The position numbers and the translations under genes were made by a program. A stretch of DNA of 36,098 nt. Origin: a virus. The stretch is taken from the IMG/VR virus record IMGVR_UViG_3300029957_000023, positions 1-36,098 of that record; one strand, written 5' to 3'. Position 1 is the stretch's first letter, and every line of letters starts with the position of its first letter. Shown in pieces: positions 5,692-36,067 of the stretch. Under the pieces are notes generated by a model. That model was not told where the DNA came from, searched no databases, and saw only the letters and a program-made list of their open reading frames with translations.

Positions 5692-5692
5692 C

Positions 5693-9914: not shown

Positions 9915-9918
9915 GTAA

Positions 9919-9948: not shown

Positions 9949-9975
9949 TAACCCTCATCAATAGCAGGCAACACC

Positions 9976-10461: not shown

Positions 10462-10464
10462 ACC

Positions 10465-11327: not shown

Positions 11328-11328
11328 C

Positions 11329-14458: not shown

Positions 14459-14459
14459 A

Positions 14460-15725
14460 ATGCTGCTGATGTTGCCACCCTACCGGGTGCTTGGGATAAG
14501 CGTATCACCCGCGCGGATGGTTTTCGGCAATCATTGCGACAATTACACAGGCGACTATTCAATATCGGGAGAACTGGTTTCGGCGCGAGTGATAAGCAAC
14601 AACACAGCCAGAATAATAGTTAATTCAAATATACTTGCTGACGTTACTTCAAGGCATCCATTTGGAAACTATTTCGACGGCTTGGGCAGACCTTATTATA
14701 TTGTAGACGATAGCAATCTAGGCAATTATTACGGCGATATGGTAGCAATAGGCGATTTTCAATATGATTTTAATGTAACTTTAAATGTTCCCGGGCTTTA
14801 TGCGGTAACGGTATTCCATGTGCTAAGTAGCTTTGGATCAATCCAATTACAGACCACATCCATAGGTTCATCGCCGCAAGGGTGGCGCGCAATATGCAGC
14901 ATAAGTGGCCCGACAGGATCAATATTCCTGCAATGCACCACAAAAAATCTAATCGGCACACCCACTACCATTACGCTGAAACGGACAGGGAACACATACT
15001 CGCTAACTTGCGGAGATACGCAAACAGGCACGTTAACCACGCTTCCGCATGATATATATGCTGTGAACACATGGCGGCTAGGAACCGCCTACAACGGCAC
15101 GACGGGTTTTGCCGGAACGCTTTCATGGATAATGAAATCGGCGCACTCAGTAACTTATAACATATTACCAGGGTTCGGCAACTGCCTGGCCTTTAACCGA
15201 ATGGGCGGGCTGATCTATTCAGGACATAGTGATTTTAATGTTCTGAATAGCGATCCATTCACATTTTGCACCAAGATTTACATCCCATCGGCGCAGCACA
15301 CAACGAGCGCGATAACGTTTCAAATAATATTGCAGAACCTGGGTTCGTCATCTATAAACATAACTGCCGCAAAACCCGCAGGGGCGTCCTATGTAACATT
15401 TTCGTGGATAGACGGAACCGTCAGGACAACCGCAAATCTTTATGCGCTGGACACATGGCACGAACTGGCGTTCGTGCGATACGGAAGCTCTCCGTCAACC
15501 ATGAAGCTGATGCTACTCGTCAATGGGTCGCCCGATCCGTTCGTAACCGCAACAAACGGCGTGAACATGTACGGGTCTGCGGGCAATCCTTTTTACATGG
15601 GCGTTGACAGCGCCAACACTAATCGGGGATTCTTTTTTCTTGACGACTACTTTTATATTATTGGACAAGCGTTATGGATAACCAACTATGCACCATCAAC
15701 CAGCCCGTTTAACTGGATACCCTAA
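14460..15725 (+). CDS. Receptor-binding protein candidate with two LamG/concanavalin-like domains
   Basis: This 421-residue protein shows two lectin-like jelly-roll halves. The first (about 95-225) contains ITLKRTGNTYSLTCG, the usual ligand-site strand pair of LamG domains. The second (about 245-415) contains DPFTFCTKIYIPS, YVTFSWIDGTVRTTANLYAL, WHELAFVRYG and STMKLMLLVNG, again LamG-like. Placed at the end of the tail genes, it probably binds surface glycans. The gene is clearly richer in A and T than its neighbours (for example 14600-14780), with many AAT, ATA and TTA codons, which suggests recent acquisition. No hydrolase residues are evident, so a binder is more likely than a tailspike enzyme. 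Confidence 0.62.
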   Translation: MLLMLPPYRVLGISVSPARMVFGNHCDNYTGDYSISGELVSARVISNNTARIIVNSNILADVTSRHPFGNYFDGLGRPYYIVDDSNLGNYYGDMVAIGDFQYDFNVTLNVPGLYAVTVFHVLSSFGSIQLQTTSIGSSPQGWRAICSISGPTGSIFLQCTTKNLIGTPTTITLKRTGNTYSLTCGDTQTGTLTTLPHDIYAVNTWRLGTAYNGTTGFAGTLSWIMKSAHSVTYNILPGFGNCLAFNRMGGLIYSGHSDFNVLNSDPFTFCTKIYIPSAQHTTSAITFQIILQNLGSSSINITAAKPAGASYVTFSWIDGTVRTTANLYALDTWHELAFVRYGSSPSTMKLMLLVNGSPDPFVTATNGVNMYGSAGNPFYMGVDSANTNRGFFFLDDYFYIIGQALWITNYAPSTSPFNWIP

Positions 15726-15737
15726 AGAGGAAACGCC

Positions 15738-15965
15738 GTGGAAAGTAAAATTGAATGGGACGGCCCGGAGCGGCGCAAGACGCATGACGAGCGACTGACA
15801 AAACTGGAGACGCAAATGGACGCTTCATTAAAAAATCAGGAAGACATAAAAAAAGCGCTGGAATCGCTAACGCTGCAATTGAGCAAATACACAGGGTTCG
15901 CGGGCGGGGTGGCTTTCGTGGTGTCGGTTATCTGGGGCATGTTCACCGTATTTCATAAAAGTTAA
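15738..15965 (+). CDS. XhlA-like membrane protein (holin accessory candidate)
   Basis: This 75-residue protein has a charged N-terminus (with ERRKTHDERLTKLETQMD), a coiled-coil segment to about residue 50, and one membrane helix at about 52-72 (TGFAGGVAFVVSVIWGMFTVF). That layout fits XhlA/hemolysin-type phage lysis accessory proteins. AGAGGA precedes the GTG start by good spacing. It lies far from the two-helix holin at 26940, on the other side of the ejection genes, so a virion-membrane role is also possible. Confidence 0.55.
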   Translation: MESKIEWDGPERRKTHDERLTKLETQMDASLKNQEDIKKALESLTLQLSKYTGFAGGVAFVVSVIWGMFTVFHKS

Positions 15966-15975
15966 AGGCATCAAT

Positions 15976-16392
15976 ATGGAAAATTTGAATACATTGATAG
16001 CGGTGGATGCAAGGCAGGTATGGGACTGGGCCAAACCGAGAATCGACACCGTGCAAAAGGAATGTTCTCGCGACTGGCGCACGGAGGACGTGTACGCGGC
16101 GCTGGTGTTCGGGAAAGCCCGGCTGTATGCCTGCAAGGACGAATCGCCACAGGACACGGTATTTGTGGTGCAGTTGATTACCAATGAATTCACCTTGAAA
16201 AAAAGCCTGTTCGTGTGGGTGTGTTATGCGCACAACACGCTGACGATAGAGCGGCATTTGCAGGACTTGAAGGACATCGCAGAGAGCTTGGATTGCGTCA
16301 GCATTCAATTCCGCTCACCGCGCCCTGGCTGGAAGCGGATCAGCGGATTTCAACAAGTCATGGCCGATTACGAAATGAGCTTGGAGATTTAA
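15976..16392 (+). CDS. Internal virion-type protein, possible GNAT fold (T7 gp13-like position)
   Basis: This 138-residue protein has an acetyltransferase-like order of strands: VYAALVFGKARLYACKD, TVFVVQLITNEFTLKKSLFVWVCYAHN, a helix with LQDLKDIAESLDCVSIQF and a closing RPGWKRISGF, like the end of GNAT proteins. T7 gp13, also 138 residues and encoded at the head of the ejection-protein genes, has a similar GNAT-like plan. I see no clear coenzyme-A loop, so catalysis is doubtful. It lies directly before the ejection proteins. The fold suggestion is tentative; the gene is real by composition and spacing. Confidence 0.45.
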   Translation: MENLNTLIAVDARQVWDWAKPRIDTVQKECSRDWRTEDVYAALVFGKARLYACKDESPQDTVFVVQLITNEFTLKKSLFVWVCYAHNTLTIERHLQDLKDIAESLDCVSIQFRSPRPGWKRISGFQQVMADYEMSLEI

Positions 16393-16394
16393 CC

Positions 16395-16970
16395 ATGTCG
16401 TCGGCAGCGAACACGACTACGCAATACGAATCCCCCTATGCGATGGCGTTGGCAAACATCAGCGCCGACAAATGGAACAACTACAAACAGACGTTTGTGC
16501 CGGTCGAAAACCAGTACATGGGCCGGGTTGACCAACTCAATGGGGCCGAACAGTACGCGCAAGTCGGCGGGCTGGCGCAATCGGGCGTGATGCAGCAATA
16601 CCAGCCGATGCTAGACCAGGCCCAGGCGCAATTGGAGCAATCCGGCGCGGCCCCAGGTTCCGGCGTTTTTACGCAGAACATGGCGAAAGCCAGGACAACG
16701 GGCGCGACAGCGGCGGCACAGGCCACGTTCGGCGCGCAGCAAGGCCAGCAGGACGCCTACCGGGCGGGGTTGGAAAGCGTGGTGGGCATCGGCAACGGCC
16801 AATCCGCCTTGGCCCAAGGCAGCATGGCCAACCTGGCGCAACAGTCCGTAGACGCGGCGAAACAGCAAACCGCGCTGGACTGGGGTAGCAAGGCGGCATT
16901 GGTGCGCGGTGTCGGCACGGCGGGCGGCCTGCTGGCCGGGGCCGGTTTAAGTTCACTCAACAGCAAGTAA
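16395..16970 (+). CDS. Ejection (internal virion) protein A, WNNYK motif
   Basis: This 191-residue protein begins at ATG 16395 just after the previous stop; the frame is open further upstream but inside the preceding gene. Its early part has DKWNNYKQTFVPVENQYMG, then an Ala/Gln-rich helical region, and a glycine-rich hydrophobic end (GVGTAGGLLAGAGLSSL) able to enter a membrane. The next gene repeats the WN-x-YK motif, so the two look like tandem duplicates. Together with the following genes it resembles the T7 gp14-gp15-gp16 set that forms a channel for DNA across the envelope. Confidence 0.6.
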   Translation: MSSAANTTTQYESPYAMALANISADKWNNYKQTFVPVENQYMGRVDQLNGAEQYAQVGGLAQSGVMQQYQPMLDQAQAQLEQSGAAPGSGVFTQNMAKARTTGATAAAQATFGAQQGQQDAYRAGLESVVGIGNGQSALAQGSMANLAQQSVDAAKQQTALDWGSKAALVRGVGTAGGLLAGAGLSSLNSK

Positions 16971-16979
16971 GGGGCTGCA

Positions 16980-17396
16980 ATGGGCGGTGGAGGCGGCGGC
17001 GTAACGCAAGATTTCGCGGGTTCCCTGGTGTCGATGAACACGGCGGTAGATCAGTGGAACGACTATAAAAACCGGTACTTACCGTACCAAAACAAACTGA
17101 TTGGCACGATAGGCGATCCGGCCATGCTGGCAGCCGACCAGGGCTTTGCGCGCAATTCGGTGGCGCAGGCCTTCGGCACGCAAGCCGGGGCGCAACAGCG
17201 CAACCTAGAGCGGCTGGGCGTGGCGATGACGCCCGACCAGCAAACGGCCAGCGACCAGACCCTGGGCCTGGCCGCCGCGGCGCAAACCGTCGCCGGGTTG
17301 AACTCGGCCGCGCAGCACACCAAAGAATCGGACATGGCGCTGATGGGCGCGGGCATGGGCTCCTTGCGCTCGACGATCAACCAAGGGGGCATGTGA
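16980..17396 (+). CDS. Ejection protein B, paralog of the preceding gene
   Basis: This 138-residue protein starts with a glycine run (MGGGGGG) and carries DQWNDYKNRYLPYQNKLIG, aligned with the WNNYK motif of the previous protein, followed by an Ala/Gln-rich helical part with AQAFGTQAGAQQRNL. It lacks the long hydrophobic tail of its neighbour, though the next gene supplies such a segment. The stop overlaps the next start (TGATG). Internal virion function is inferred from context and composition. Confidence 0.55.
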   Translation: MGGGGGGVTQDFAGSLVSMNTAVDQWNDYKNRYLPYQNKLIGTIGDPAMLAADQGFARNSVAQAFGTQAGAQQRNLERLGVAMTPDQQTASDQTLGLAAAAQTVAGLNSAAQHTKESDMALMGAGMGSLRSTINQGGM

Positions 17397-17965
17397 TGAC
17401 AGGCATCATTCAAACCGGCATGGGCTTAAAAGCGGATGCCATGGCGGGGCTTAACGAAGTCGCGTCCCTGGAACAACAGCGCAGCCTGGCCAACCAGGCG
17501 GCCAAAGCAGGAATGCAGGCAGCCAAGGGCCAGGCCATCGGCACGGCGGTCGGCATGGCCGCGCCGACTCTCGCCAAGGCGGGACTGGGCAGCGTGGCCC
17601 CGGCAGCGGACGCGGCGATTCCGGGCGGCGGCGTGGCGGGGGAGGTGTTCCCCGGCGCGGGCTTGCCGGGCGAAGCCATCCCGACCGGCGGCGGCGCGCT
17701 GGGCGGTGCGGCGGCGGGGTATAGCGCAGGCGCGGCGGCGGGCGGTGTGGCGAGTGGCGTGGGCGGCGGGGTCGGCGGGGCGCTGGGCGGACTCGCCACC
17801 GCGCCGCTGTCGCTGGCTGGTTCTGGCCTGTCGGCGTTGGGCGCCACCACGGCGGGCAGCGCGCTGACCGGCGCGGCCACGTCAGCCACGACAGCGATAG
17901 CGGCGGGTGCGGCGGAGGTCGGCAGCGCGATTGCCGCAGGTTTCTCGGCATTGATGGCATTCTGA
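17396..17965 (+). CDS. Glycine/alanine-rich membrane-active ejection protein
   Basis: This 189-residue protein is almost entirely Gly, Ala and small hydrophobic residues from position 45 on (for example GGVASGVGGGVGGALGG), with few charges. An N-terminal helical part (DAMAGLNEVASLEQQRSLANQ) resembles its neighbours. Such proteins in the ejection cluster probably insert in the host membrane. The ATG at 17396 shares its first base with the stop of the previous gene; a GTG lies one codon earlier. No family can be named with certainty because low-complexity sequence misleads comparison. Confidence 0.55.
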   Translation: MTGIIQTGMGLKADAMAGLNEVASLEQQRSLANQAAKAGMQAAKGQAIGTAVGMAAPTLAKAGLGSVAPAADAAIPGGGVAGEVFPGAGLPGEAIPTGGGALGGAAAGYSAGAAAGGVASGVGGGVGGALGGLATAPLSLAGSGLSALGATTAGSALTGAATSATTAIAAGAAEVGSAIAAGFSALMAF

Positions 17966-17973
17966 GGCAAACC

Positions 17974-18549
17974 GTGGACAAAGACACTTTAAAAGGCTTG
18001 TTTCTGGACTCCCTAGCACGCTTGCCAACGCCTTTCCGGCAGCGTGTGGAGATCGTGCTGGCCGGGTACTGGCGCATTTCGCGCACAGAAGAATTGATTC
18101 AGCGCGTGCTAGACGGCGAGCTTTGCGACGAAGACGACCGCGACTATTGGACGATGGGGCTTGAGGACGAGCGCGGCCACGCCGACGCCTACCGGCTTGA
18201 CCTGCGCGACTGGTACGGCCAGCAAATGGCAGAGCGGCTTATCAGCGCTTACCAGCCGTGCCCCGGCATGTACTGGTTGCTGACCGAAGGCATCGGCGAT
18301 TGCCCGTACACGCTGGGGATTTACCGCACATATCTGGAACTGGGCTTGATTTCGATGCCGCCCGAGGCGTTGAAAGAGGCGCGGGAGTGGTTGCCGCGCA
18401 CCATGGCGATCCACGAAGCCGCCGATCCTGGCCACGCGGATGCGGGGCTGGATTATCTGTTGCGCTACCACTGGGAGAACCCGGCGGTGGAGATTGAAAT
18501 GGTTGAAAAGATGTTGATCGCCGAGATCAACCACCGGGGGGTTCGATGA
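17974..18549 (+). CDS. Heme-oxygenase-like non-heme iron oxidase fold candidate (UndA/TenA-superfamily)
   Basis: This 191-residue, mostly helical protein stands out among the virion genes. It has the residue pattern of heme-oxygenase-like diiron proteins: E66-R-G-H69 in a helix followed by RLDL, E105 in LLTEGIGD, and H147-x3-D151-x2-H154. UndA-type enzymes use the same E-x2-H, E, H-x3-D-x2-H set to hold iron. The helix-by-helix plan (GELCDEDDRDYW, then the ligand helices) also fits the iron-containing redox enzyme family. The distance from H69 to E105 (36) is shorter than in characterised members, so the fit is not exact. It starts at GTG 17974 and overlaps the next gene by four bases (ATGA). 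Substrate is unknown; it may be metabolic or structural. Confidence 0.5.
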   Translation: MDKDTLKGLFLDSLARLPTPFRQRVEIVLAGYWRISRTEELIQRVLDGELCDEDDRDYWTMGLEDERGHADAYRLDLRDWYGQQMAERLISAYQPCPGMYWLLTEGIGDCPYTLGIYRTYLELGLISMPPEALKEAREWLPRTMAIHEAADPGHADAGLDYLLRYHWENPAVEIEMVEKMLIAEINHRGVR

Positions 18550-19979
18550 ACGGGTACTTGGTCGGCGGGCTGGCGGACGGCCTGGTGCAAGGCTTTCAGG
18601 CGGTCACACAGTGGGACGCGCTGAAGAAGGAACAGGCGCGGCAGGAGAAGCAGGACGCCGAGAATGCGACCTATCGCCAGCACGCGATGGGCCTGGCCGA
18701 CGCCCAGATGGGCATGAGCCGGGAGGAACTGGCGATGCAGCAACAGAAGCAACAGGCCGATATTGATAACGATAAAACGCGCCTAGGGTTGGCAGCGGTC
18801 GGATTAGGGCTGGACAAGGAAAAAACCGCCGCGCAGATCGACCTACAGCGCAGCCAACTGGGCATCCAACAAGGACAACTAGGGCTGGCGCAGGCAGCCA
18901 ACGCCCGGGCGGAGCAAGACCAGGCTTTCCAAAATGCGCAGAACAGCCTAAAAATGCAAGAGCTGCAACGCCAGCAAAAAATCCAGACGGTTCAACGTGA
19001 AGTGGTGCCGAAGATGTTGGCCGGGAACATGACGAAAGAGGACGTTGATAAATGGGACGCCAACATGCCCTTCACACTGGCAAATCTAGCAAATGACCAG
19101 CAGGTCGATTCGGCGGTTGGCGCATTCCATGATTTGAAAATAGGCAAGATTGGGCTTGATGATGAAAGGATAAACCAAGCGGCGGACTGGCTGTTCCATA
19201 ATCAATTACAGCGTGGAATCGGCGAAAAAGTACGGGTTAGAGATGCCCAAGGCAACCCGACCGGGCCGGAAATCGTCGTCACATCTAAGCATTGGGCGGG
19301 GGCATACCCCACTAAAGACGGAAAATTCGGCGTCAACATGTGGGTGGTCGGCAAAGACGACCAAGGCAAAGATGTGAAGTACGTGGCTCCAGTCACGGCA
19401 GGGGGAACCGGCGATCCTAGCGACCCCATCGTATCCTTTTCAGGCGATGCTCTGGAACGCAACTTAGCGGCGGCGATGCACTTCAATCACGCCTATCACA
19501 ATGATAAAAACTTTCAGGCGTCTGTTAATTATGCGCTGAAAGGCGACACTGACACGAAAGCGGAAGCGGAAAAATCCAAGCTGTTGGCCGAAACCGACAA
19601 AGCCAAAACGGAAGCCGAACTTAACCGGGCAAAAAACGAAACGGAAAAACAAGGCGGCGGGTATAAAGATCAAGCATCGAAAATGGATGATGTGCGGGCG
19701 TTGATAAAATACCGGCTCGGGGACAAACTTAATGCCATTGGTGAAACTGTTTTACAAGGCGATGCCGTAGGCCACGATTATGTGAACAGAGAAGCCGACA
19801 GGTTGAATCGTGAAAATCCGAAACTGACGGCTACGCAACTTTACGACCAAGCGTTCAAGTCGTATGAGGCGGCGAAACCACAGATTCAAGAGGAACAAAT
19901 AAAAGCGGACTTCAAAAAGGGAAAATTATCGAAGGACGAAGCTAAAAAGAAATTGCTAGAACTCGGAGGGTTTCATTGA
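18546..19979 (+). CDS. Ejection protein C, coiled-coil rich (T7 gp15-like position)
   Basis: This 477-residue protein has a long Gln/Lys/Glu-rich coiled coil (about 25-160, with repeats such as QLGIQQGQLGLAQ), a globular middle (about 165-315 with HWAGAYPTKDGKFGVNMWVV and YVAPVTAGGTGDPSDP), a second charged helix (about 335-370) and a helical end rich in lysine. In T7-like ejection systems the middle protein (gp15) is a large helical tube that bridges to gp16, and the position here matches. The start overlaps the oxidase-like gene, the end overlaps the giant gene (TGATG). The last third is somewhat richer in A and T than the average. Confidence 0.6.
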   Translation: MNGYLVGGLADGLVQGFQAVTQWDALKKEQARQEKQDAENATYRQHAMGLADAQMGMSREELAMQQQKQQADIDNDKTRLGLAAVGLGLDKEKTAAQIDLQRSQLGIQQGQLGLAQAANARAEQDQAFQNAQNSLKMQELQRQQKIQTVQREVVPKMLAGNMTKEDVDKWDANMPFTLANLANDQQVDSAVGAFHDLKIGKIGLDDERINQAADWLFHNQLQRGIGEKVRVRDAQGNPTGPEIVVTSKHWAGAYPTKDGKFGVNMWVVGKDDQGKDVKYVAPVTAGGTGDPSDPIVSFSGDALERNLAAAMHFNHAYHNDKNFQASVNYALKGDTDTKAEAEKSKLLAETDKAKTEAELNRAKNETEKQGGGYKDQASKMDDVRALIKYRLGDKLNAIGETVLQGDAVGHDYVNREADRLNRENPKLTATQLYDQAFKSYEAAKPQIQEEQIKADFKKGKLSKDEAKKKLLELGGFH

Positions 19980-22900
19980 TGCAAGCTTCGCGCAGCGCAG
20001 ACGAGTTTTTGGACGCGCCAGACGGCGGCGCGAAGCCTACCGCCGCGCCGGTTCGGGCTTCGCGCAGCGCAGACGAGTTTTTGGACGCGCCAGACGGCGG
20101 CGCGAAGCCTACCGCCGCCTCGCCCGGCTTCCTATCCTCTATCGCTTCCGGCCTGGCCGACTTGGGCCGCGCCGACGCGGCCACGGTCTCGACGCTGGGA
20201 CGGCAGGCGGCGCAAGCGGCGCGGGGCCACGAGCCGATACAAGCCATGCTGGCGCGCTCAGAGGAAAAGCACGGCCTGCCGCTGGGCTTCCTGGACAAGA
20301 TCGCCTACACCGAAAGCCATTACAACCCGGACGCGGTGAGTCCGAAGGGCGCGGCGGGCGTCATGCAGTTCATGCCGGGGACGGCCCGGCAATACGGCAT
20401 TGATCCGCTGGACCCGCACTCGGCGATTGACGCGGGCGGCAAGCATGTGCGCTACCTGCTGGACAAGTACGGCGGCGACCAGGCCAAAGCGCTAGCGGCG
20501 TACAACTGGGGCGAGGGCAACTTGGATAAGGCGCTGGCGGCCAGCGATGGCCGGGACTGGCGGGCGCAGCTGCCTGCGGAGACCTACGACTACTTGGGCA
20601 AGATTTTAGGCGCGCAGGCGTCCGGCCTGCCGCCCGAATTGCACGGCCTGCCGGTATCGCCGGTCGCCGTCGACCAGGTGCGCAAAACCTACCAAGGCAT
20701 GGGACCGGAGGCCCGCGCCGCGCTGCTGGCGCAGGACGACACCCAAGGCCGGATTGCCCGCGCCGTGCATGCCGAGTTCCAGCGCTTCGACCAGAGCCCG
20801 CTGGGGCGCGATCCGACTTTGCGCGCTGTCACCGGCGGCAGGCTGGAAGACCGGGCGCTAGGCTACCGGCTGCAAGGTTCGGAGCCCGGCACGGCGCTGT
20901 CGCTGGCCGCGTCCGACGTGGCAGCGGACTTGCCCGGCCAGCATCTGGCAATCGCCAGCGAGGGCAATAATCCGATGGGCCTGGGCGGCCAGACGCTGCA
21001 ATCCTCTAGACAAGGACTTGTCAACCTGCGGCAGATGGGCGCGGGGCTGGGCGCGTGGGCGTCCGATGTGCTGGGTGACGAGCAGGCCACGCGGCGGTTG
21101 ATGGAGGACTACCAGAACCTGGAAGACGAGGCGGCGCGCCTCCCGGCGGAGGTGCCGACGCTGAAGGATGTGCATTCCGGCGGCGACCTGGCCAAGTGGG
21201 CGACGAATGCGATTTACGCCAATCTGCCGCTGATGTTGCCCTCGCTGGCGTCCGGGGGTGTGACCGGATTGACCGCCCGCGCGCTGGCGAAGCGCACGTT
21301 CACCGGCCTGGCCACGCAACTGGGCGAGGAGAAGGCGGCGCAGATCGTCGCCAACCGGATCGCCCTGGCGGCGGGCGCCGGGGCCGGGGCTTCGTCCATC
21401 AGCCAGGAAACCGGTTCCATCTACGGCGACATCCGCCAGCAAACCGGCGAGGGGCATCCGGTCATTGCCTTGGCGGCAGGCGTGCCCGCCGGGCTGCTGG
21501 ACACCCTCCCCGACATGATGGTGTTGCGCAAGGCGCTCGGCGCGGGCGCGGCGCGGCAAATCGGGGAGGGGCTGGTGGCCCGTTACGGACTGCCCATCGC
21601 AAAGCAGATGCTGACCGAGGGCGCGACCGAGGGCGCGCAAACGGCGATTGAGAAAGGCGCGGCGGCGGTCGCCGGTGGCAATCCCTTTCTGTCGAAAAGC
21701 ACGCTGGACGAGATCCTCGAATCCATGGCCCAAGGCGCGGTGGCCGGGGGCGTGGTCGGCGGCGGTGCGGAGGCGGCAGGCCAGGCCGCGCAGGTTCGGC
21801 CCGTGCCGGGTTCGCCGGAAAGCTACGCCGGTTTAATGGGCGCATTGGGCTTCAGGCCCGGCGCGAACGCCAACAACAACACGGGAGACAACAATGGTCA
21901 AAGCGGCATGGGCACGGCTGGAATACCTGCCATGGACGTGGCAGACGACGCGGGAGGAACAGCGGCTGCTACACTCGGACATGGGGCAGGAGGTACGGCT
22001 TTGCCGACTCGTGGGCCTGTTGGAGATGCTGGACGAACAGCAGGCGAAAACCTTGCCGGTGCCCCTGTCGCTGACCAGCCAATAGGCGGCGATCCTAACA
22101 GCATCGCGGCGCGGGCAGGGATCGCCGAGCCAACGCCCACGCCCAAGCGGACGCCGCGGCTACGCGACAAGCCGATTAAGCCGATTGAGGATGGTGATTC
22201 GATACTGTCGGCCATCGCTAAACTGGGCGGCGTGGACGCCGGGGAGGCGATGGCGCAGGGTATCGATACGCCTTACGTCACAGGTAAAGGGCGCATCATC
22301 GGCCACGGCATCTTGAACGTGTTCACCGGGACGGGATATAGTTTTGACCATATGGCCGAAAACTTGCGGCAATATGGGTTCCCGGTAGAGGGGGCCAACG
22401 ACCTGTTGCGGCAAATCACGGACGCGATCAGCGCTAAAGAACGAGGCCACGCCAGCAACCTGAACAAGATGGCCGCCGACCACGCCGACACCGCACAACA
22501 AATGGAGCAGGCGCAGGAACACGCCTATTTGTCGCCGGGCTTTGAATTCCACGAGGACGAGTACACGCCCGCGATGGACGACAAGGGACGGCACATGCTG
22601 GAACTCGCCACCGCTTTGAACCGGCTGGACGAGGGGGCAGGGGATGCCATTGTAGAACGCCAAGCCATCCAAGGAGATGATTATGACCACACCCTTAACA
22701 CCCTCAAAAGCGCCATCTCAGCACGGTCTAGTGTTGGCGAAGCTGCGCGAGAACCGGGCCAAGGGCCACGAACCCAAGCCCAGGAAACCGCCGACCTCTT
22801 CGGCAACCACGACCCCACAGCCCAGGCGGTAGCCGACCTCGAGCGGCAGAAGGCGGCGAAGCGCAACGGCGACGGCCAAGCGGCGGGGGAATTGTTCCCC

Positions 22901-25900
22901 GGCGCGGGGCAGATGGACGTGGAGGATTTAGCCGGCAAAAATGCGCCGCAGGCCTCGCCCCCCTCGATGTCGAAGGCCTCGCCCTCCATTCCGCCGCAAG
23001 CCGCGCCGGACGCGGTTTCCTCGCCGTCTAGCTCCTCGATCCAACAAGCCGAAACGTTTGGCATTCCGGCGGACGAATGGGCCAAGGCGGAAGCGGAGGC
23101 GCGGACGAAATGGGAGGCCCATAGCCAGCCCAAACAACGGATGCTGCTTAAAAGTTACGGCCACCCGGCTGAATTCGCCGCGCAATCATTTGATGCCCTG
23201 CCGCAGGCGATGCGCGAGGATTTGACCGCCGCGCGGGCGGGTTGGACGGCCAAGCCCGGGGGCACGAATATGGCCACAGCCGCAGAGGCTGAGCCCCAGT
23301 TTTCATCTGGACAGGATACCCCCTTGCCCAGCGGCCAAACCGTGGCCGCTGTGCGCAAAGCGCTAGGGCGGCAGGGCCGGATACTGGAAAAGGCCGGCCT
23401 GTTGAACATCGTGCAGCGCAATGACCAACTCCCCGTCAAAACCGGCACGCGGCGGTTTCGTGGACTGTACCACCAAGGCAAAGCGTGGATGGTGGCCGAC
23501 TACATCCCCTTGAACCAGGAAATGGGCGTATTCCTCCATGAGGCGGGCGATCATGCCAACATGGAGGACATGCTGGGCACCGCTCGCTATGCCGACGTGG
23601 CTGCGCAGGCAGAGCGCATCCTGGCCGAGGGCGGCGCGGTCGCTGAGACGGTCGCCAAGGCCATTCCAAAATCCACGCCTGAGCGGCATTTGGCCTCTGA
23701 GCGCGTGGCTTACCTGGTGGAGTATGTCACCCATGCCGACGAAGCCACACGGGCGACGATGCCCGGACGGTTGAAAGTGTGGGCGGCGCGGGTGTTGTCG
23801 GCCTTGCGGGCTTGGTTCTACCGCACACAGCTTGCCCGCGACTTGGAGGCGCGCGGGATCAAGCTGGATTTGTCGGCGCGGGACTTGGCGGCGCTGGCGC
23901 GGCAGGCGGTGGAGTGGAGGATTGAGCAAGAGACCGCGCCGAGCGGATTGGATGAGGCGTTGCCGGAAGGGGCCAAGGCCAGCGCCGCCAGTCCACCGCC
24001 CGAACCGGGGAAGCCCTTGGACGAAAACGCCGAGCCGGAAATCAGCCGCAACCTGAAGAAGATGACGGTGCAGGACATCAAGGCGTTGGTAGAAGCGGAT
24101 ATTAAAGGGCTACGCAGTTTGGGCCTGCCCCTGCTGGGTCGGCGGCAGATCGTGGAGTTGTACGGCGACGATGTGCCGGAAATTCGCGTCTACGATCATC
24201 TGATGCAGCTTTACGCGGCGGATGCGAACGAATTGCAACACAAAGCGGGCGAGGTTGCCGACCGCTGGGCGAAGCTTAGCAAGGCCGTTTCAGATCGCCT
24301 GGCCGACATCATGCACCTCGCCACGGCGACCGGCGTAGACCCCTCGCTAGTGGCTTATGTCCCGCGCTGGGACGAGGCGTCGGTAAAGGCTGCTTATCAG
24401 CAGGAATTTAAGGAAACAAGAGAGCGAGTCGCACAATTAAAACGGATGATTCATGGCATCAGTGGCGACCCCGTTATAGGGCGTAAAAGACAGCTTTTCG
24501 ACGAACTTCAGTATGAGCTGAAGCATGAAAAGCGCCTCTCTCGCCCATGGGCCGAAAAGACGTTCGTCAAGCGCAAAAAAAAGGAAGAAGAAGAGAGGGC
24601 GGTGGCTTATAAACAGCTTCATCCGCTATTCGCCGCGCTGCCGAAAGAGGCGCGGGACATCTTCACGACGGCGCGGGACATGTACAACAAACAGTGGGCC
24701 GACGTTGAGCAAGCACTGATTGACCGCATTAACCGTTCGGACGCATCGGAAAAAGTCAAAAAGGAGAATATTGCCGCCTTGCGGTTGATGTTTCGCAAGA
24801 AACTGCCGGATATTTATTTTCCGCTGGCCCGCAATGGCGAATATGTCATAGCGGTCAAGAAGCCCGATGACAGCAACGAAGCCGTGCTGTTCGCCGAGTC
24901 GCTATCTCAAGCCGAAAGCTTGCGCAAGGAATTACAGGCCCGCTACGCAGACACCGATAAAAAAGTAATGCCTATCGGCAAGAAGCAAGAGAAGTCGGCG
25001 CGAGACATGGTGTCGGGAAAGTTTGTGTCCGATGTACTGGACTTGCTGGGCACCGAGAACGGCGGGCCAAGTCTCGACGCCCTGCGCGAGCAGATCATGC
25101 AAATGTATCTGGAAGCCTTGCCGGATTTAAGCTGGGCCAAGCACGAAATCCACAGAAAGAACATGCCGGGCTACTCGCGGGACGCCCGCCGAGCATTCGC
25201 CTCGTCGATGATGCACGGCGCTTCGCACCTGGCGCGGATTCGCTACGTTGACCAGCTAGAAAAGGCGCTGGACCAGGCCCAGGCCGGGGTGAACGAACAC
25301 AAATACGACGAGGGCATGGACGCGGTGCGGGCGCAAGAGGTTGTCAACGAGATGCGCAAGCGACATGACATCGCCATGAACCCGCCCAACACGCCCCTGG
25401 CCAACCTGCTGACCGGCGCGGGCTTCATCTGGTACATGGGCCTGTCCCCCGCGTCGGCCATCGTCAACCTGACCCAGACGCCCCTGGTAGCCTACCCGGT
25501 GCTAGGGGGGCAATTCGGCTTCCGCAAGTCCGCCTTGGCGCTCTCCGTGGCTTCGCGCCAGGTCGCCGGGGCGATGGCCGGGGGTGGCTTGCTGAAGAGC
25601 GAGGAGCAGTTGCTGAAGCGCCTGGCCAGCCGCTTGAGTGCCGACGAACTGGCCGCGATCAAGCGGGGGATTGATGAGGGGCACGTCGTGGTGACACTGG
25701 CGCACGAGCTGGCCGGGGTGGCCCAGGGCGCGGAAACTAACCCCGTCGCCAAGCCGTTTCTGAAAGCGGCCAGCTACATGTTTCACGTCGCCGAGATGTT
25801 CAACCGCATCGCCACCCTGCTGGCCGCGCACCGGCTGGCAGTGAAGGACGGCTACAGCCCCGAGGCGGCGTATAACAAGGCGGTGGAACTGACCTACGAC

Positions 25901-26953
25901 GGCCATTTTGACTACTCGGCCACCAACCGCCCCCGTGTCATGTCCGGGGCCGGAGCGCGGGTGTTGCTGCTGTTCAAGCAATACTCGCAAAATATGACTT
26001 ACACCCTGGCGAAAAATGGCGCGGAGGCGCTGCTGGCGTCCAACGACTTCATGCACGGCAGGCCCGTGGCCGAGCGGCGCAAAATGGCCGGCAAAACCTT
26101 CGCCGGGCTGATGGCGATGCACGGCATGATTGCCGGGGCGTTCGGCCTGCCGCTGGCCTCCACGTTGATGGCGGCGGCAAGCTGGCTGTGGGGCGATGAC
26201 GACGAACCGTTCGACGCCGAGGTCGCCGTGCGCAACCTGCTGGCGGATCGTTTCGGCAAGAAGGTGGCCGAGGCGCTGGTGCATGGCCTGCCGCGCGCCG
26301 TGTTGCCGGGCGACCTGGCCGGGCGCGTGGGGCTCGACCACTTGTGGTTCCCGGACATCCAGGAAGGACTGGAAGGGGACAAGTGGTATCTAGCCCTGGA
26401 ACACGCGATGCTCGGGCCTGTGCTTGGCATCTTCCCCAGCTGGGCTAGTGGCGCGCAAACCATCGCGGAAGGCCAATGGGAGCGCGGCGTGGAGGAACTA
26501 TTGCCCAAGTTTCTGCGCGACTATTTTAAAGCCAGCCGCTACTACCGAGAAGGCGTGGTGGACAAAACCGGAATCGACATCCTGGACGACACCACGCTGT
26601 TAGAGGAAATCGGCCAGGCGGCGGGCTTCTCCTCTGCGCGGGTGCTGGAAGCCTACGAGGGGCGCGGGGCGATCTACAACCAGGACAAGCGCCTGTCACG
26701 GCGGCGCGCGGAAATCCTGGCCGACTTCAGCCGGGCCGCTCTCGAAAAAGACGAGAAGGGGAAAGCGGCCGCGAAGGAAGACATGGCCCACTGGAACAAG
26801 ACGAACCCCAGCATGGCCATAACGGGCGAGAACCTGCTGGCGTCTGTCCTGCGGCGGCAACGGCGGATCGCCGAGGCGAAAGACGGCGTGGCGCTGCCAG
26901 CGAAAAAGGCCGGCCTGCGCGACTTGGGGAGGTTCGCCAATGACGGACAATAA
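19979..26953 (+). CDS. Giant ejection protein: lytic transglycosylase plus polyvalent (LPD38) domains (T7 gp16-like)
   Basis: This 2,324-residue protein should enter the host with the DNA and open the cell wall. It begins with two exact 24-residue units (SADEFLDAPDGGAKP). Residues 95-190 are an SLT transglycosylase: catalytic E112 in AYTESHYNPDAVSPKGAAG, VMQFMPGTA, and AAYNWGEG. Hydrophobic helices follow (about 410-600). A linker (about 620-740) overprints a small frame. About 740-830 is a polyvalent-protein module (ILSAIAKLGGVDAGEA). A zincin-like HEAGDH stands at 1187-1192 with a possible third ligand in ERVAYLVE near 1241. An LPD38-type domain lies at about 1935-2085 (FNRIATLLAAHR, LLLFKQYSQNMTYTLAKNG). 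The ATG at 19979 overlaps the previous stop; it may be a fusion of two older genes. Confidence 0.85.
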   Translation: MQASRSADEFLDAPDGGAKPTAAPVRASRSADEFLDAPDGGAKPTAASPGFLSSIASGLADLGRADAATVSTLGRQAAQAARGHEPIQAMLARSEEKHGLPLGFLDKIAYTESHYNPDAVSPKGAAGVMQFMPGTARQYGIDPLDPHSAIDAGGKHVRYLLDKYGGDQAKALAAYNWGEGNLDKALAASDGRDWRAQLPAETYDYLGKILGAQASGLPPELHGLPVSPVAVDQVRKTYQGMGPEARAALLAQDDTQGRIARAVHAEFQRFDQSPLGRDPTLRAVTGGRLEDRALGYRLQGSEPGTALSLAASDVAADLPGQHLAIASEGNNPMGLGGQTLQSSRQGLVNLRQMGAGLGAWASDVLGDEQATRRLMEDYQNLEDEAARLPAEVPTLKDVHSGGDLAKWATNAIYANLPLMLPSLASGGVTGLTARALAKRTFTGLATQLGEEKAAQIVANRIALAAGAGAGASSISQETGSIYGDIRQQTGEGHPVIALAAGVPAGLLDTLPDMMVLRKALGAGAARQIGEGLVARYGLPIAKQMLTEGATEGAQTAIEKGAAAVAGGNPFLSKSTLDEILESMAQGAVAGGVVGGGAEAAGQAAQVRPVPGSPESYAGLMGALGFRPGANANNNTGDNNGQSGMGTAGIPAMDVADDAGGTAAATLGHGAGGTALPTRGPVGDAGRTAGENLAGAPVADQPIGGDPNSIAARAGIAEPTPTPKRTPRLRDKPIKPIEDGDSILSAIAKLGGVDAGEAMAQGIDTPYVTGKGRIIGHGILNVFTGTGYSFDHMAENLRQYGFPVEGANDLLRQITDAISAKERGHASNLNKMAADHADTAQQMEQAQEHAYLSPGFEFHEDEYTPAMDDKGRHMLELATALNRLDEGAGDAIVERQAIQGDDYDHTLNTLKSAISARSSVGEAAREPGQGPRTQAQETADLFGNHDPTAQAVADLERQKAAKRNGDGQAAGELFPGAGQMDVEDLAGKNAPQASPPSMSKASPSIPPQAAPDAVSSPSSSSIQQAETFGIPADEWAKAEAEARTKWEAHSQPKQRMLLKSYGHPAEFAAQSFDALPQAMREDLTAARAGWTAKPGGTNMATAAEAEPQFSSGQDTPLPSGQTVAAVRKALGRQGRILEKAGLLNIVQRNDQLPVKTGTRRFRGLYHQGKAWMVADYIPLNQEMGVFLHEAGDHANMEDMLGTARYADVAAQAERILAEGGAVAETVAKAIPKSTPERHLASERVAYLVEYVTHADEATRATMPGRLKVWAARVLSALRAWFYRTQLARDLEARGIKLDLSARDLAALARQAVEWRIEQETAPSGLDEALPEGAKASAASPPPEPGKPLDENAEPEISRNLKKMTVQDIKALVEADIKGLRSLGLPLLGRRQIVELYGDDVPEIRVYDHLMQLYAADANELQHKAGEVADRWAKLSKAVSDRLADIMHLATATGVDPSLVAYVPRWDEASVKAAYQQEFKETRERVAQLKRMIHGISGDPVIGRKRQLFDELQYELKHEKRLSRPWAEKTFVKRKKKEEEERAVAYKQLHPLFAALPKEARDIFTTARDMYNKQWADVEQALIDRINRSDASEKVKKENIAALRLMFRKKLPDIYFPLARNGEYVIAVKKPDDSNEAVLFAESLSQAESLRKELQARYADTDKKVMPIGKKQEKSARDMVSGKFVSDVLDLLGTENGGPSLDALREQIMQMYLEALPDLSWAKHEIHRKNMPGYSRDARRAFASSMMHGASHLARIRYVDQLEKALDQAQAGVNEHKYDEGMDAVRAQEVVNEMRKRHDIAMNPPNTPLANLLTGAGFIWYMGLSPASAIVNLTQTPLVAYPVLGGQFGFRKSALALSVASRQVAGAMAGGGLLKSEEQLLKRLASRLSADELAAIKRGIDEGHVVVTLAHELAGVAQGAETNPVAKPFLKAASYMFHVAEMFNRIATLLAAHRLAVKDGYSPEAAYNKAVELTYDGHFDYSATNRPRVMSGAGARVLLLFKQYSQNMTYTLAKNGAEALLASNDFMHGRPVAERRKMAGKTFAGLMAMHGMIAGAFGLPLASTLMAAASWLWGDDDEPFDAEVAVRNLLADRFGKKVAEALVHGLPRAVLPGDLAGRVGLDHLWFPDIQEGLEGDKWYLALEHAMLGPVLGIFPSWASGAQTIAEGQWERGVEELLPKFLRDYFKASRYYREGVVDKTGIDILDDTTLLEEIGQAAGFSSARVLEAYEGRGAIYNQDKRLSRRRAEILADFSRAALEKDEKGKAAAKEDMAHWNKTNPSMAITGENLLASVLRRQRRIAEAKDGVALPAKKAGLRDLGRFANDGQ
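19985..20118 (+). repeat. 72-bp tandem duplication at the start of the giant gene
   Basis: Bases 19985-20046 and 20057-20118 are identical over 62 positions at a period of 72, exactly 24 codons. The frame is kept, giving two copies of a motif with RSADEFLDAPDGGAKP. Absence of any silent difference points to a recent duplication. The motif sits ahead of the transglycosylase and could be a short virion-binding peptide. Confidence 0.9.
21894..22085 (+). CDS. Nested small gene inside the giant gene (63 residues)
   Basis: In another frame of the giant gene lies an ATG with GGGAG (21883-21887) six bases upstream, followed by a 63-residue frame. The product looks like a folded helical protein: LEYLPWTWQTTREEQRLL, then RLVGLLEMLDEQQAK, with a normal mix of residues. 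Over the same bases the giant frame reads only low-complexity Gly, Ala, Thr and Asn, as expected for a linker forced by overprinting. I recognise no family. Either a real overlapping gene, or the relic of a gene once placed between two separate virion genes that have since fused. Proof needs homologs or expression. Confidence 0.45.
   Translation: MVKAAWARLEYLPWTWQTTREEQRLLHSDMGQEVRLCRLVGLLEMLDEQQAKTLPVPLSLTSQ
22683..22832 (+). CDS. Second nested small frame inside the giant gene (49 residues)
   Basis: AAGGAG (22670-22675) stands seven bases before an ATG at 22683 in the same alternative frame as the nested gene at 21894. The product is 49 residues, basic and proline-rich (HGLVLAKLRENRAKGHEPKP). 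The giant frame here is more protein-like (QETADLFGNHDPTAQAVADLE), which makes this case weaker. The good ribosome site is the main argument. Confidence 0.25.
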   Translation: MTTPLTPSKAPSQHGLVLAKLRENRAKGHEPKPRKPPTSSATTTPQPRR

Positions 26954-27406: not shown

Positions 27407-27697
27407 CTACCCGGCCATCCTGATTTTCTCTTTTCTCGAAAGCTTCGCCGAGCGGATGTTCTCCGCCTCGTAGTCGAGCGCGGCGGACACGGTGTCGAAG
27501 AGCAGCCATAGCCGCGTCAACGACTCCGCGCCGCTGGGTTCGGTGCGGGCGGCGATGGACGCCAGGCTTCCCAGGTCGGTGACGACGCCGGACAGGTTTT
27601 CCAGCGTGTCCTCCGTCCACAACGCGCCAATCAGCGGGTTTATCGCCGCCGCCGCCTCGCGATCCACGCCGCTCAGTTTCGATCTGCGCTCAGACAT
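27407..27697 (-). CDS. Hypothetical protein downstream of Rha-like gene
   Basis: This 96-residue helical protein has no motif I recognise. It is mildly acidic in the middle (TEDTLENLSGVVTDLGSLAS) with a C-terminal amphipathic stretch (LWLLFDTVSAALDYEAENIR) and a basic end. Its ATG lies eight bases inside the end of the Rha-like gene, so both are translated from one minus-strand message that ends at the terminator at 27338-27383. Length and composition suggest a small regulatory partner, but nothing proves it. Confidence 0.55.
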   Translation of the reverse strand: MSERRSKLSGVDREAAAAINPLIGALWTEDTLENLSGVVTDLGSLASIAARTEPSGAESLTRLWLLFDTVSAALDYEAENIRSAKLSRKEKIRMAG

Positions 27698-28640
27698 GGC
27701 GCACCGCCAAGCCCTTCAGCGAGGAGCGGTTGGCCAGGGATTCGGCGAACAAGCGGCGGGCCATGTCCAACGGCGGGAACACATACCACCAGGGGCGGGG
27801 TTCGCCTTTCGGCACGCCCGGCCGTTCGCGGCGGACGCCCCAGCTATGCAGGGACGCGCCGAGGTGGACAGTGGATTCGACGTGCGCGAGGTGGCGCAGG
27901 CGGCACCAGTCGGCATAGGCTGTTTGCACGGCGCGGCAGGGCAAGGTTCGCGGCCATTCGGTCGCGCCGGGCTCCGCGCCAATCTGGCCGGTTTCCAGGC
28001 AGTTGCGCCACCATTCGGCGACGCTGCCGTGGGCCTGGCTCGTCACCACCAGGCTGGGGCTGTTGAAGGCCAGGGCGGACGCCTGGCCTGCGTGTTCGGC
28101 GAGGGTGGCGGCGACGTAGCCGGGGGTGACGCCGCAGCGGATCAGGTAGGCGTTGGCGGCGCTGCGCGACAGGCGGAAGAGGTTGCCGAGCTTGGATGAC
28201 TCCACCAGGTCGAACGGGCTGCCGGTCGGGCAGGTGCCTTCGGCGAAGGCGTCGGGGAAGCCGGGCGGCTCGTCGAAGTCCTCCCGGCGCAGCGCCTCGG
28301 CGTCGCGCAACTGTTCGGCCATCGCGAAGAACTCGCGCACCAGGCGCTTTTTGAACTCGCGCACCACGGGCGAGTTGCGCATGTAGGTGATGAGCAGCGT
28401 GGCCTGGGGCTCGTTGAGGAGAGCATATTCAGCGTCGCCGCCGCCATGCCTGCCAGGTTCTCTTGGTCGGATTTCAAATCGCACCAAGCCGAACTCTTCG
28501 TAATCGTTTAAATGGTTGCGCACCAGCTTGATGACGCTGGCGTGTTCATTGTCGGTGCCTTCGGCCATAGCGAGGGTAGACGTAACCGGCTGACCGTGGG
28601 CCAGGGTGACGAGGGGCGGATTTTTGGTGTAGCTAGACAT
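27690..28640 (-). CDS. Rha-family regulatory protein with a primase-type C-terminal module
   Basis: This 316-residue protein has an N-terminal Rha domain (about 25-110: EHASVIKLVRNHLNDYEEFG, then NEPQATLLITYMRNSPVVREFKK), known from P22 and phi80 Rha regulators and phage antirepressors. The C-terminal 100 residues (about 204-305) match the end of this phage's primase: both have VAEWW, CLE-x-G, Y-x-x-WCR, LG-x-x-L-x-x-WG, RPG and PW-x-YV-x-P-x-x-D-x-AR in the same order. The start at 28640 is chosen because AGGAAAA precedes it; an in-frame TTG lies seven codons earlier. A long structured leader lies upstream. It may compete with or control replication by binding the same DNA as the primase. 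That role is inference. Confidence 0.75.
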   Translation of the reverse strand: MSSYTKNPPLVTLAHGQPVTSTLAMAEGTDNEHASVIKLVRNHLNDYEEFGLVRFEIRPREPGRHGGGDAEYALLNEPQATLLITYMRNSPVVREFKKRLVREFFAMAEQLRDAEALRREDFDEPPGFPDAFAEGTCPTGSPFDLVESSKLGNLFRLSRSAANAYLIRCGVTPGYVAATLAEHAGQASALAFNSPSLVVTSQAHGSVAEWWRNCLETGQIGAEPGATEWPRTLPCRAVQTAYADWCRLRHLAHVESTVHLGASLHSWGVRRERPGVPKGEPRPWWYVFPPLDMARRLFAESLANRSSLKGLAVRHV

Positions 28641-28706
28641 GATGGTTTTCCTGTTGAGCAAGGTTTAACCACCATCCTCCGTTCCAAGAGAGGGTGGCGG
28701 CAACAT

Positions 28707-28847
28707 GGGGTTGGAACTACCGCCTCAACAGATACGGCATCCGTCTTGCGACGGCCCCATGCCACCGCCATAAAAATCGGGCAAGCGGGCATGAAAAAAC
28801 GCGCCGGGCGCGTTTCGGCTGTTGAGGCAGTGCGGGGTTCCAATCCC
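28707..28847 (-). promoter_or_regulatory. Structured leader of the Rha-like gene: long-range inverted repeat around a terminator
   Basis: GCCTCAACAG (28722-28731) and CTGTTGAGGC (28819-28828) are exact complements. Outside them 28707-28717 pairs with 28837-28847 with one G-T pair. An intrinsic terminator on the minus strand lies inside, next to the right arm. A leader with such folding between promoter and gene resembles attenuation-type immunity regions of satellite phage P4. The pairing could decide between termination and expression of Rha. The structure is seen; the mechanism is inferred. Confidence 0.55.
28793..28816 (-). terminator. Intrinsic terminator in the Rha leader
   Basis: AAACGCGC (28797-28804) and GCGCGTTT (28808-28815) form an eight-base stem with a CGG loop. 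On the minus strand the stem is followed by extra T (complement of the A run at 28794-28799). It lies about 55 bases after the predicted start of the minus-strand transcript, so most transcripts might stop here. Confidence 0.65.
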
Positions 28848-28849
28848 GT

Positions 28850-28865
28850 CCCCGGTGTGCCGGGG
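28850..28865. repeat. Short hairpin in the Rha leader
   Basis: CCCCGG (28850-28855) pairs with CCGGGG (28860-28865) around TGTG. It lies at the very 5' end of the predicted minus-strand leader and could protect the RNA or bind a regulator. Confidence 0.5.
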
Positions 28866-28872
28866 CGCGGAT

Positions 28873-28902
28873 ACACTAGACCTTAAGCCGAAAGCGTGTC
28901 AA
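28873..28902 (-). promoter_or_regulatory. Promoter for the Rha operon
   Basis: On the minus strand a consensus TTGACA (28902-28897) is followed after 18 bases by TAGTGT (28878-28873). The -35 is perfect, the -10 poor. Transcription would give a leader of about 225 bases before the Rha start. The same hexamer read on the plus strand serves a divergent promoter. Confidence 0.55.
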
Positions 28903-33198: not shown

Positions 33199-33429
33199 TC
33201 AGTCGGCCTTTTTGCGGCGGGGCTTGCTGGCTTCGGCGATGGCGCGGGCCAGGGCTTCAATCCCTGTGCGGACGCCCAGCGGCGTTTTGCCTTCCGGGCG
33301 GGGACGCGGCCACTTTTCGCAGAGGTCGGCCAGCTCGTCGATCAATTCGGGCACGCCGTCGCCTGCGTTGTTCGCGGGGGACGGGGGCGGATCGTCGAAA
33401 GGAGAGGGTTCTTCGGGGTCTACGCTCAT
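33199..33429 (-). CDS. Small acidic protein downstream of the Tad2-like gene
   Basis: This 76-residue protein has a Pro/Asp-rich start (PEEPSPFDDPPPSP), a helix (VPELIDELADLCEKW), and a basic end (EALARAIAEASKPRRKK). No family is recognised. The ATG overlaps the stop of the Tad2-like gene, so the two are made together. A role with Tad2 is only suggested by the coupling. Confidence 0.55.
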   Translation of the reverse strand: MSVDPEEPSPFDDPPPSPANNAGDGVPELIDELADLCEKWPRPRPEGKTPLGVRTGIEALARAIAEASKPRRKKAD

Positions 33430-33923
33430 TGCCCAAAGCCCTCAGTGATTAGCCAATCGTCGGCTAGAATGTCGGTCTGGGAGGCAAGCCAGCCCATCAG
33501 GATTTTACCGTCCGCCGTCTTCATAGTGATACACGGCAAAACTTGCGCTTCGCCATTGGGTTGTTCGGCGGCATAGTCGGCGTTATTCTGCGACCAAAAC
33601 GCGCTGGCGGGGATGCTGCGCCCGTGCAGAGGGCCAGACAAAGACAACCACATGCCCTTGCCATTCCAACCGGCACGCGCCACTTTAAAGCCTTTCTTCA
33701 AGGCTTCGACGGCCAGGCCGAAACTCATAGCGTCAGCCGGGCGATAGGCTTCCTCGAAAACCGACGCGGGGCTCCACGATATGTAGTCGTCTGGATAAAC
33801 CACCCGGTAGCCGTCGCTGCCTTCCGGGTATTCGCCGAACCGCTGCCACGCCTTGCAGGGGTAGGCTTCAATCACTTTGACGCCGATGAACCGGCGAAAC
33901 GGTTCAGGTTGCTGGGTTTCCAT
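33426..33923 (-). CDS. Tad2-type anti-Thoeris protein (DUF2829) with an extra N-terminal domain
   Basis: This 165-residue protein has a C-terminal DUF2829 domain (about 66-159): MSFGLAVEALKKGFKVARAGWNGKGMWL-type start (seen in pieces as SFGLAVEALKKGFKVARAGW), then LPCITMKTADGKILMGWLAS and DILADDWLI. This family includes Tad2, which binds the Thoeris signal molecule (a glycocyclic ADP-ribose) and so blocks that defence. The N-terminal 62 residues form a second small domain (RFIGVKVIEAYPC, GYRVVYPDDYISWSP, VFEEAYR) often met in phage proteins. AGAGGT precedes the ATG and TATAAA lies upstream. It is the first gene of the minus-strand operon, ready for early expression. Confidence 0.75.
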   Translation of the reverse strand: METQQPEPFRRFIGVKVIEAYPCKAWQRFGEYPEGSDGYRVVYPDDYISWSPASVFEEAYRPADAMSFGLAVEALKKGFKVARAGWNGKGMWLSLSGPLHGRSIPASAFWSQNNADYAAEQPNGEAQVLPCITMKTADGKILMGWLASQTDILADDWLITEGFGQ

Positions 33924-35245: not shown

Positions 35246-35417
35246 GCTGTTCCAGCGAATCATCCCCGCGCTTGCTGGTGATGCCTTCCAGCAAGGCGTA
35301 GTGGCGTTGCTGGATCATGGCATGGAAAACCGCCACGTCGGCGGGCGTGCGCTGGTCCAGGGGGCGATCCAGCCAAAGCCGCCGCAAACTTTCTTCGCAA
35401 TGCGTGCGTTTGCTCAT
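35205..35417 (-). CDS. Small protein coupled to the repressor
   Basis: This 70-residue protein has a helical plan: RTHCEESLRRLWLDRPLDQ, then TPADVAVFHAMIQQRHYALLEGI and SLEQLTDVLRWHTH. No family is named. ATG 35417 overlaps the stop of the repressor gene (ATGA), so it is translated with the repressor from the lysogenic operon. It may be a lysogeny accessory factor. The end overlaps the convergent gene by 41 bases. Confidence 0.55.
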   Translation of the reverse strand: MSKRTHCEESLRRLWLDRPLDQRTPADVAVFHAMIQQRHYALLEGITSKRGDDSLEQLTDVLRWHTHPPP

Positions 35418-36067
35418 TCCGCGTGCCACAGGGCTTTTTTGACGATGGCGACCACGGGGTGGATTTTGTCCACCTGGTCCAAGGGGATGGCCTGGGGCGG
35501 GTGGGCGGCGTTGGCGGACATGAGGTGCAAGCGGCCCTCGCGGCGGTAGAGGAAGGTTTTGACCATGACGCGACCGTCGACGGCCTTCACCAGCACTTCA
35601 TCCCCCGGGATCGGTTCGCCGTTGGGTTCGACAATGACGTACTCGCCGTCAAGGATGCGCGGGCGCATGGAATCGCCCCGGCAGCGCAGGGCGTAGGCGT
35701 TGGCGTCGCGGCTGGCGAATTCGATGTGGCCGTCGCCGTGGCCGACTGGATATTCCAGTTCGGCCCAGTGGCCGTTGTCGCCGAGTTGAGCCGTGCCGAC
35801 CACCGGCACGCGGCGCGGCGCGGCCAGCTTGGGGGCGGGCGCGGCGTTGTCGGCGTCGTAGCATCCGCGCTTGGACTCCAGGCGGAAGCCTGTCCCCTCT
35901 ATCAACAAGCCATTGTTCAGCGGCTCCTCGCCGCGCAATTGCGCTAATGTGACGCCGAAAAACACGGCCAGGCCGGGAAACAAAGCCGCGCCGAAGGCGT
36001 CGGCGGGATGTTTCCCGTGCCCCCGCGTAGCCGAGGCACCGGGCGGGTTTCCGCAGGAAACCTGCAA
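35414..36067 (-). pseudogene. S24-family (CI/LexA-like) repressor lacking an intact DNA-binding domain
   Basis: The C-terminal part is a full S24 peptidase and dimer domain: VPVVGTAQLGDNGHW, NAYALRCRGDSMRP with S133, and DEVLVKAVDGRVMVKTF with K170. The N-terminal part keeps only the last piece of a helix-turn-helix region (FFGVTLAQLRGEE, 36-48), preceded by a segment (NPPGASATRGHGKHPADAF) that does not fold into the usual helices. The frame closes with TGA at 36089-36091, so only a TTG at 36067 can start it. A normal repressor of this type has about 60 residues of HTH before the linker. Either the 5' end is lost or frameshifted, or the sequence near the window end contains an error. If intact, it would keep the prophage silent and be cleaved upon RecA activation. 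Confidence 0.6.

Follow-up and report, generated by a model that had tools for sequence, protein, structure and literature searches.

What is a part of the replication enzyme doing at the end of a phage regulator? This question is raised by a single gene, rha, in the window (the whole stretch of viral DNA analyzed here, 36,098 nucleotides from record IMGVR_UViG_3300029957_000023). The initial annotation proposed that the last ∼100 residues of the Rha-type regulator are the same domain that ends the phage primase, and that the regulator could thereby shut off replication in the lysogen or recruit the replicase. Where did this domain come from, when is the protein made, and on what would it act?

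A primase domain at the end of Rha

The rha gene lies exactly where it had been placed, and its product consists of two domains held together by a linker.

27690–28640, minus strand: rha, a Rha-type regulator of 316 aa (ORF and translation; ATG at 28640, stop at 27690)
28317–28583, minus strand: Rha (Phage_pRha) N-terminal domain (Pfam, residues 19–107 of the 315-aa version; pLDDT ∼70–89)
28038–28265, minus strand: low-confidence linker joining the two domains (pLDDT <50, residues 125–171 and 175–196)
27717–28028, minus strand: winged-helix module, the captured primase C-terminus (42% identity to the primase C-terminal domain, CTD)
27407–27697, minus strand: ORF of 96 aa from the ORF list, sharing 8 nt with the 3′ end of rha

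The N-terminus passes the Pfam family PF09669 (Phage_pRha) with 50.9 bits and E 2.4e-13, the gathering score being 29.9, and the 20.7 bits obtained for NCBIfam TIGR02681 are below the curated cutoff of 45.95. The protein is classed as a transcription regulator. Besides the module, only Phage_pRha and related regulator families were matched, and no nuclease domain was found in Rha. The 96-aa ORF has no Pfam match and is probably coupled to rha at the level of translation; it is a possible partner of Rha.

The C-terminus is a different matter. BLASTP aligns Rha residues 205–302 with primase residues 753–854 at 44 identical positions of 104 (42%; 84.7 bits, E 3e-22), phmmer finds the primase CTD with the module at 1.2e-21, and the local alignment score of 209 compares with a maximum of 56 over 2000 shuffles. 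All of the motifs that had been listed for this alignment (to primase residue 855) are there, in order. When the module was searched against the window with tblastn, the primase was matched and otherwise nothing of note. A profile match between the two C-termini had been set beforehand as a test, and it was obtained with an HMM built from 10 primase CTDs from which Rha was left out (E 3.3e-20, 71.2 bits). A comparison of Rha with another profile, A1, was discarded, because A1 itself included Rha. The structure prediction that had been called for agrees: AlphaFold2 gives the module a pLDDT mostly of 84–97 over residues 201–300, and the order of its elements, three helices followed by a β-wing, is that of a winged helix. 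The observation is confirmed, and it is stronger than first stated.

The primase, its iterons, and the ancestry of the copy

The source of the module is found at the other end of the window.

304–2910, plus strand: primase-helicase of 868 aa with RepB_primase, PriCT_2, and DUF5906 domains (Pfam, all above the cutoff)
2560–2865, plus strand: winged-helix CTD of the primase, putatively origin-binding (tblastn with the Rha module)
2911–3148, plus strand: array of CGTCCTA/TAGGACG iterons, a putative origin; the left set has one orientation and the right set is inverted
3148–3210, plus strand: AT-rich tract flanking the array (71% AT), a candidate melting site

The gene is a DUF5906/D5-type primase, with 80.1 bits for PF19263, 55.9 for PF08707, and 33.2 for PF16793. 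The last 110 residues are found again at the C-termini of primases of the same type, in phages such as VP5, ZP6, RDJL6, Pam3, and Bordetella phages. When its helicase region was searched against viral contigs, 80 relatives were obtained, in nearly all of which the 10-CTD profile detects the CTD. The module is thus the winged-helix CTD of the DUF5906/D5-type phage primase-helicases. Pox_D5 (PF03288, gathering score 21.4) reaches 17.4 bits on the window primase CTD, below that score, and has no match on the Rha CTD.

To which winged helices is it related? Its structural neighbors are winged helices, including, among the best matches, the RFX DNA-binding domain and archaeal and eukaryotic Orc/Cdc6, at Z values of 5–6, which are not decisive alone since such values can reflect a common arrangement only. 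A profile of 37 CTDs finds RFX5 at E 2e-5 and RFX1 at 0.0026. The C-terminal domain of vaccinia D5 has been reported to bear a weak resemblance to RFX1 (PMC9611036), and the α protein of P4 uses a winged-helix domain to bind the repeats of its origin (PMC4234260). The domain of P4 α is absent among the fold matches listed, an absence that does not count against a relationship, and the 37-CTD profile meets it (1ka8) very weakly, at E 1.4 over profile positions 39–73.

The array that had been noted at 2911–3148 is real. It holds nine exact copies of CGTCCTA plus near copies, together with an inverted repeat of 60 nt that is 87% complementary; only one further exact copy lies elsewhere in the 36 kb, the expectation for the whole window being 2.3, and none lies near rha. 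Such arrays flank the primase in 20 of 78 related cases, mostly with lineage-specific words. Those following the primase genes of L033, L034, L086, L028, L029, and others include, e.g., CTAGACCA in 13 copies and AGTCCTAG in 11, and words of this kind could help to map the specificity of the CTD.

Would Rha and the primase read the same word? The nearest CTD relative, contig L026 from a different phage, has the identical CGTCCTA word, and the wing pattern R-x-RPG...RPW-x-Y is common to the primase, L026, and Rha and absent from L027–L033, whose iterons differ. In RFX1-type binding the wing is the DNA-reading element. Between Rha and the primase, helix 1 (8 of 12 residues) and the wing (13 of 22) are retained, but only 3 of 10 residues are identical in the presumed recognition helix (IKQLGSDLQR in one, TVHLGASLHS in the other). 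With this helix so strongly changed, the sequence-specific binding of Rha may differ or be lost; an iteron specificity common to the two proteins is plausible, not assured. Overall identity is a poor guide here, as a CTD identity of ∼40% predicts a common iteron only sometimes: L027–L029 (47%) and L030–L033 (61%) share none by the test used. The idea that iteron sharing can be predicted reliably from CTD identity alone was consequently dropped.

The trees point to a local source. Among 80 CTDs, the Rha copy is sister to the primase of its own phage (100/91), and L026 comes next (99/87); a tree of 24 CTDs agrees, with Rha and the resident primase as sisters (97/92). A one-clade test does not reject a capture earlier than the split from L026 (p 0.10). 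The module is therefore best explained, as far as such comparisons reach, as a duplicated CTD from the primase of the resident phage or of a near relative. It also appears to be an old one: identical residues of Rha and the primase use the same codon in 15 of 38 cases, and 15.9 are expected from usage, so that silent sites are saturated. Codon agreement no higher than usage predicts implies an old copy whose protein sequence has been held by selection.

Nor is this the only copy. In the unrelated phage L065 (IMGVR_UViG_3300002097_000027), positions L065:5132-5743 on the plus strand encode a 204-aa protein whose C-terminal 130 residues are 45–48% identical to the CTD of that phage's own primase. 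The gene lies shortly after the primase gene and after TTGGACCAG-like repeats that form a short array, and the CTD copy carries a net charge of +10 and reaches 22.8 bits for Pox_D5, above the gathering score. The grouping of the Rha and L065 copies as one clade is rejected (p 1e-4), from which it follows that the CTD, on the evidence of the trees, has been captured at least two independent times. By eye the L065 protein seemed to have a Bro-N-like N-terminus, but this has no Pfam or PHROG match and its model is of low confidence; the protein is not called a regulator.

Further searches leave Rha as the sole regulator with a CTD in the records examined, known from one phage only. Whole-record searches of 79 records with this primase family gave L065 as the only extra CTD copy, and patterns taken from the Rha module and the primase CTD found no further fusion in viral and genome contigs. 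At the sensitivity of tblastn, no CTD capture was seen among 50,697 phage records. Rha was matched in 225 phage records and 10 times in 401 bacterial genomes from a single family, and the primase module was found on none of these. When 797 bacterial genomes were searched by profile, the returns were primases, broken primases, and contig ends, and one integrase–primase frame besides. The latter, L134 (G1158:C12:439404-439733), is a frame of 583 aa with an integrase-like start followed by the AAA+ part and the CTD of a primase; it may represent the remains of a prophage junction, or a genuine chimera. For positions 1–20000 of the window, no nearest-neighbor DNA was found among phages.

The antisense leader of rha

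When is Rha made? The leader of the gene gives a clue.

28690–28775, minus strand: antisense RNA of the C4 family within the rha leader (RF01695 at E 2.2e-8 and 49.7 bits, against a gathering score of 45)
28794–28879, minus strand: upstream target region of C4 (isrK match at 28794–28866, c4-a1b1 match at 28829–28879)
28819–28828, minus strand: b1 site, GCCTCAACAG, antisense to C4
28651–28687, minus strand: a2/b2 pairing sites of C4 upstream of the rha start (TTGGAAC at 28681–28687 and CTCAACAG at 28651–28658)

A scan of the whole window against Rfam with fast filters missed the C4 RNA, which a focused scan detected. In the upstream target region, the matches to isrK (RF01394, 44.7 bits, cutoff 50) and to c4-a1b1 (RF03163, 33.5 bits, cutoff 46.7) are both below the cutoff. 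The a1 element, TTGGAAC, is antisense to C4 as is b1, the two matches being 10 + 7 nt, and the a2 and b2 sites are antisense to it without mismatch, over 7 and 8 nt. The locus thus has what defines a C4 system: a C4 RNA above the gathering score, with complementary pairs both upstream and at the start of rha. No C4 was found near eight other Rha loci.

In P1, the antirepressor Ant is under the control of C4 RNA, and high expression of ant1 and virulence have been linked to mutations that affect C4 (PMC8201110). By analogy, the lysogen would probably keep rha silent, and expression would come with infection or induction. This speaks against the proposal that Rha shuts off replication in the lysogen, where the C4 leader and its target sites imply that the gene is probably off.

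Other features of the window deserve mention. A CI-like repressor of the S24 peptidase type, encoded at 35414–36067 on the minus strand, fits a temperate phage. At 33426–33923, also on the minus strand, there is a Tad2-like protein of the Thoeris anti-defense kind (PF11195, 82.6 bits). On the plus strand, an ORF of 2325 aa (19976–26953) combines an SLT lytic transglycosylase with an LPD39 polyvalent domain, and a perfect 72-bp tandem duplication is present at 19985–20118.

A switch aimed at the origin?

What the fusion suggests is a switch with the replication origin of the phage as its direct target. Of the roles that a regulator could have, that of a replication brake is the most likely: Rha would be an antisense-controlled, origin-directed protein that restrains primase-initiated replication in trans, a reading to which we give a probability of about 0.45. 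In the lysogen, rha would be held off by the C4 RNA. Where C4 is absent or outrun, i.e., on infection of a naive cell or on induction, Rha would be produced, and its module would dock on the CGTCCTA iterons and/or pair with the origin-binding domain of the primase. The N-terminal domain may add a second contact, to DNA or to protein. Rha has no helicase, so that its presence at the origin would mean restraint: initiation would be limited, or timed. The anatomy has good support; binding to DNA, pairing between proteins, timing, and the direction in which Rha acts are inferred. The Rha proteins of phi80 and P22 inhibit phage growth in IHF-defective hosts (PMC4936722), and a growth block of this kind fits the brake reading. 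As to what had been suggested first, the part in which Rha carries the putative binding end of the primase is supported, with the homology, the predicted winged helix, a position corresponding to that of D5/P4-type origin-binding domains, and the adjoining array all in its favor; the shut-off in the lysogen is not.

What else could explain the fusion? Perhaps the module no longer reads the iterons and titrates the origin-binding domain of the primase by pairing with it. This is rather unlikely, even if the pattern of change suits it, with the recognition helix altered and helix 1 and the wing kept; the conserved wing is precisely the element that reads DNA in RFX1-type binding, and the charge of the L065 copy looks as though selected for DNA binding. 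The precedent would be P4, where Cnr is reported to control α: cnr controls the copy number of this element (PMC8628076), and the title of Yeo et al. (2002) refers to regulation of the P4 origin-binding domain via winged-helix homo- and heterodimerization (PMC4234260). A transcriptional or recruiting role, in which the iterons serve as an operator for transcriptional read-through past the primase gene to the HTH and terminase genes, or Rha aids the loading of the initiator, appears distinctly unlikely. Rha is, after all, classed as a transcription regulator, and the array does lie between the primase stop (2910) and ORFs on the same strand, namely an HTH gene (3191–3568) and the terminase small subunit (3647); however, the array region has no mapped promoter, and the downstream genes differ in L065 and other phages.

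It is improbable that Rha aims instead at related phages or satellites, at whose origins the same iterons occur, in the manner of ICP1 Odn, whose DNA-binding domain is 42% identical to the RepA_N of PLE1 and requires the iterons (PMC8263062). The different phage L026 does offer the same iteron, but Rha lacks a nuclease domain and would hit its own origin, which bears the same iterons. Still less probable is a relic of recombination, a chance fusion with no role at the origin. The fusion occurs in one contig only, and domains swap freely among proteins of the Bro network (PMC10111431), but 42% of the residues have been kept while silent sites became saturated, the frame is intact and open behind its C4 leader, and a second, independent capture exists in L065.

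If the preferred reading of Rha as an origin brake is right, the C4 immunity circuit would be linked to replication, beyond the repressor alone. The initiator domain gives Rha a direct and testable target, which would be either the origin or the initiator itself. A wider claim, namely that phages repeatedly equip a small protein with a copy of their own initiator's origin-binding domain, and so obtain origin regulators that are silenced in the lysogen and released in the lytic cycle, is doubtful for now; if true, it would describe a general and previously undescribed class of replication switches that set when and how often the origin fires.

Each ingredient is known; what was found nowhere described in the literature consulted, mostly open-access, is their combination, in which a Rha behind a C4 leader is joined to the initiator domain of its own phage. 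The Rha family itself (phi80, P22; PF09669) shares the N-terminal domain, above the Pfam cutoff, but the family matches lack the primase module. The C4/immI systems of P1, P7, and P22 have the same order, from the a1b1 target through the C4 RNA to a2b2 at the start of the regulated gene, although what is controlled here is the Rha–CTD fusion rather than ant or icd. In the pri-rep-ori region of GN-PICIs, too, the origin comes after the primase gene and consists of two iteron sets close to an AT-rich tract (PMC6092414); the phage of the window differs in having packaging genes, a DUF5906-type primase, and an AT-rich tract that flanks the iteron sets instead of separating them. P4 offers two parallels: α is a primase-helicase that acts on repeats through a winged-helix origin-binding domain at its C-terminus, and copy number is under a separate small protein, Cnr. 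The primase of α is nevertheless TOPRIM-type, and its profile link to the CTD is the very weak one given above.

The closest precedent is Odn (Gp88) of ICP1, a second protein with an initiator-type DNA-binding domain that acts at origin iterons (PMC8263062). In that literature, as had been supposed, no case of Rha joined to a primase CTD turned up, but the principle behind it is known from Odn. Odn, however, is a nuclease with a RepA_N domain directed against the origin of a satellite, whereas Rha carries the CTD of its own phage's D5-type primase, without a nuclease and under a C4 leader. Rha would thus show that origin-directed proteins can be derived from the phage's own initiator, besides that of a rival.
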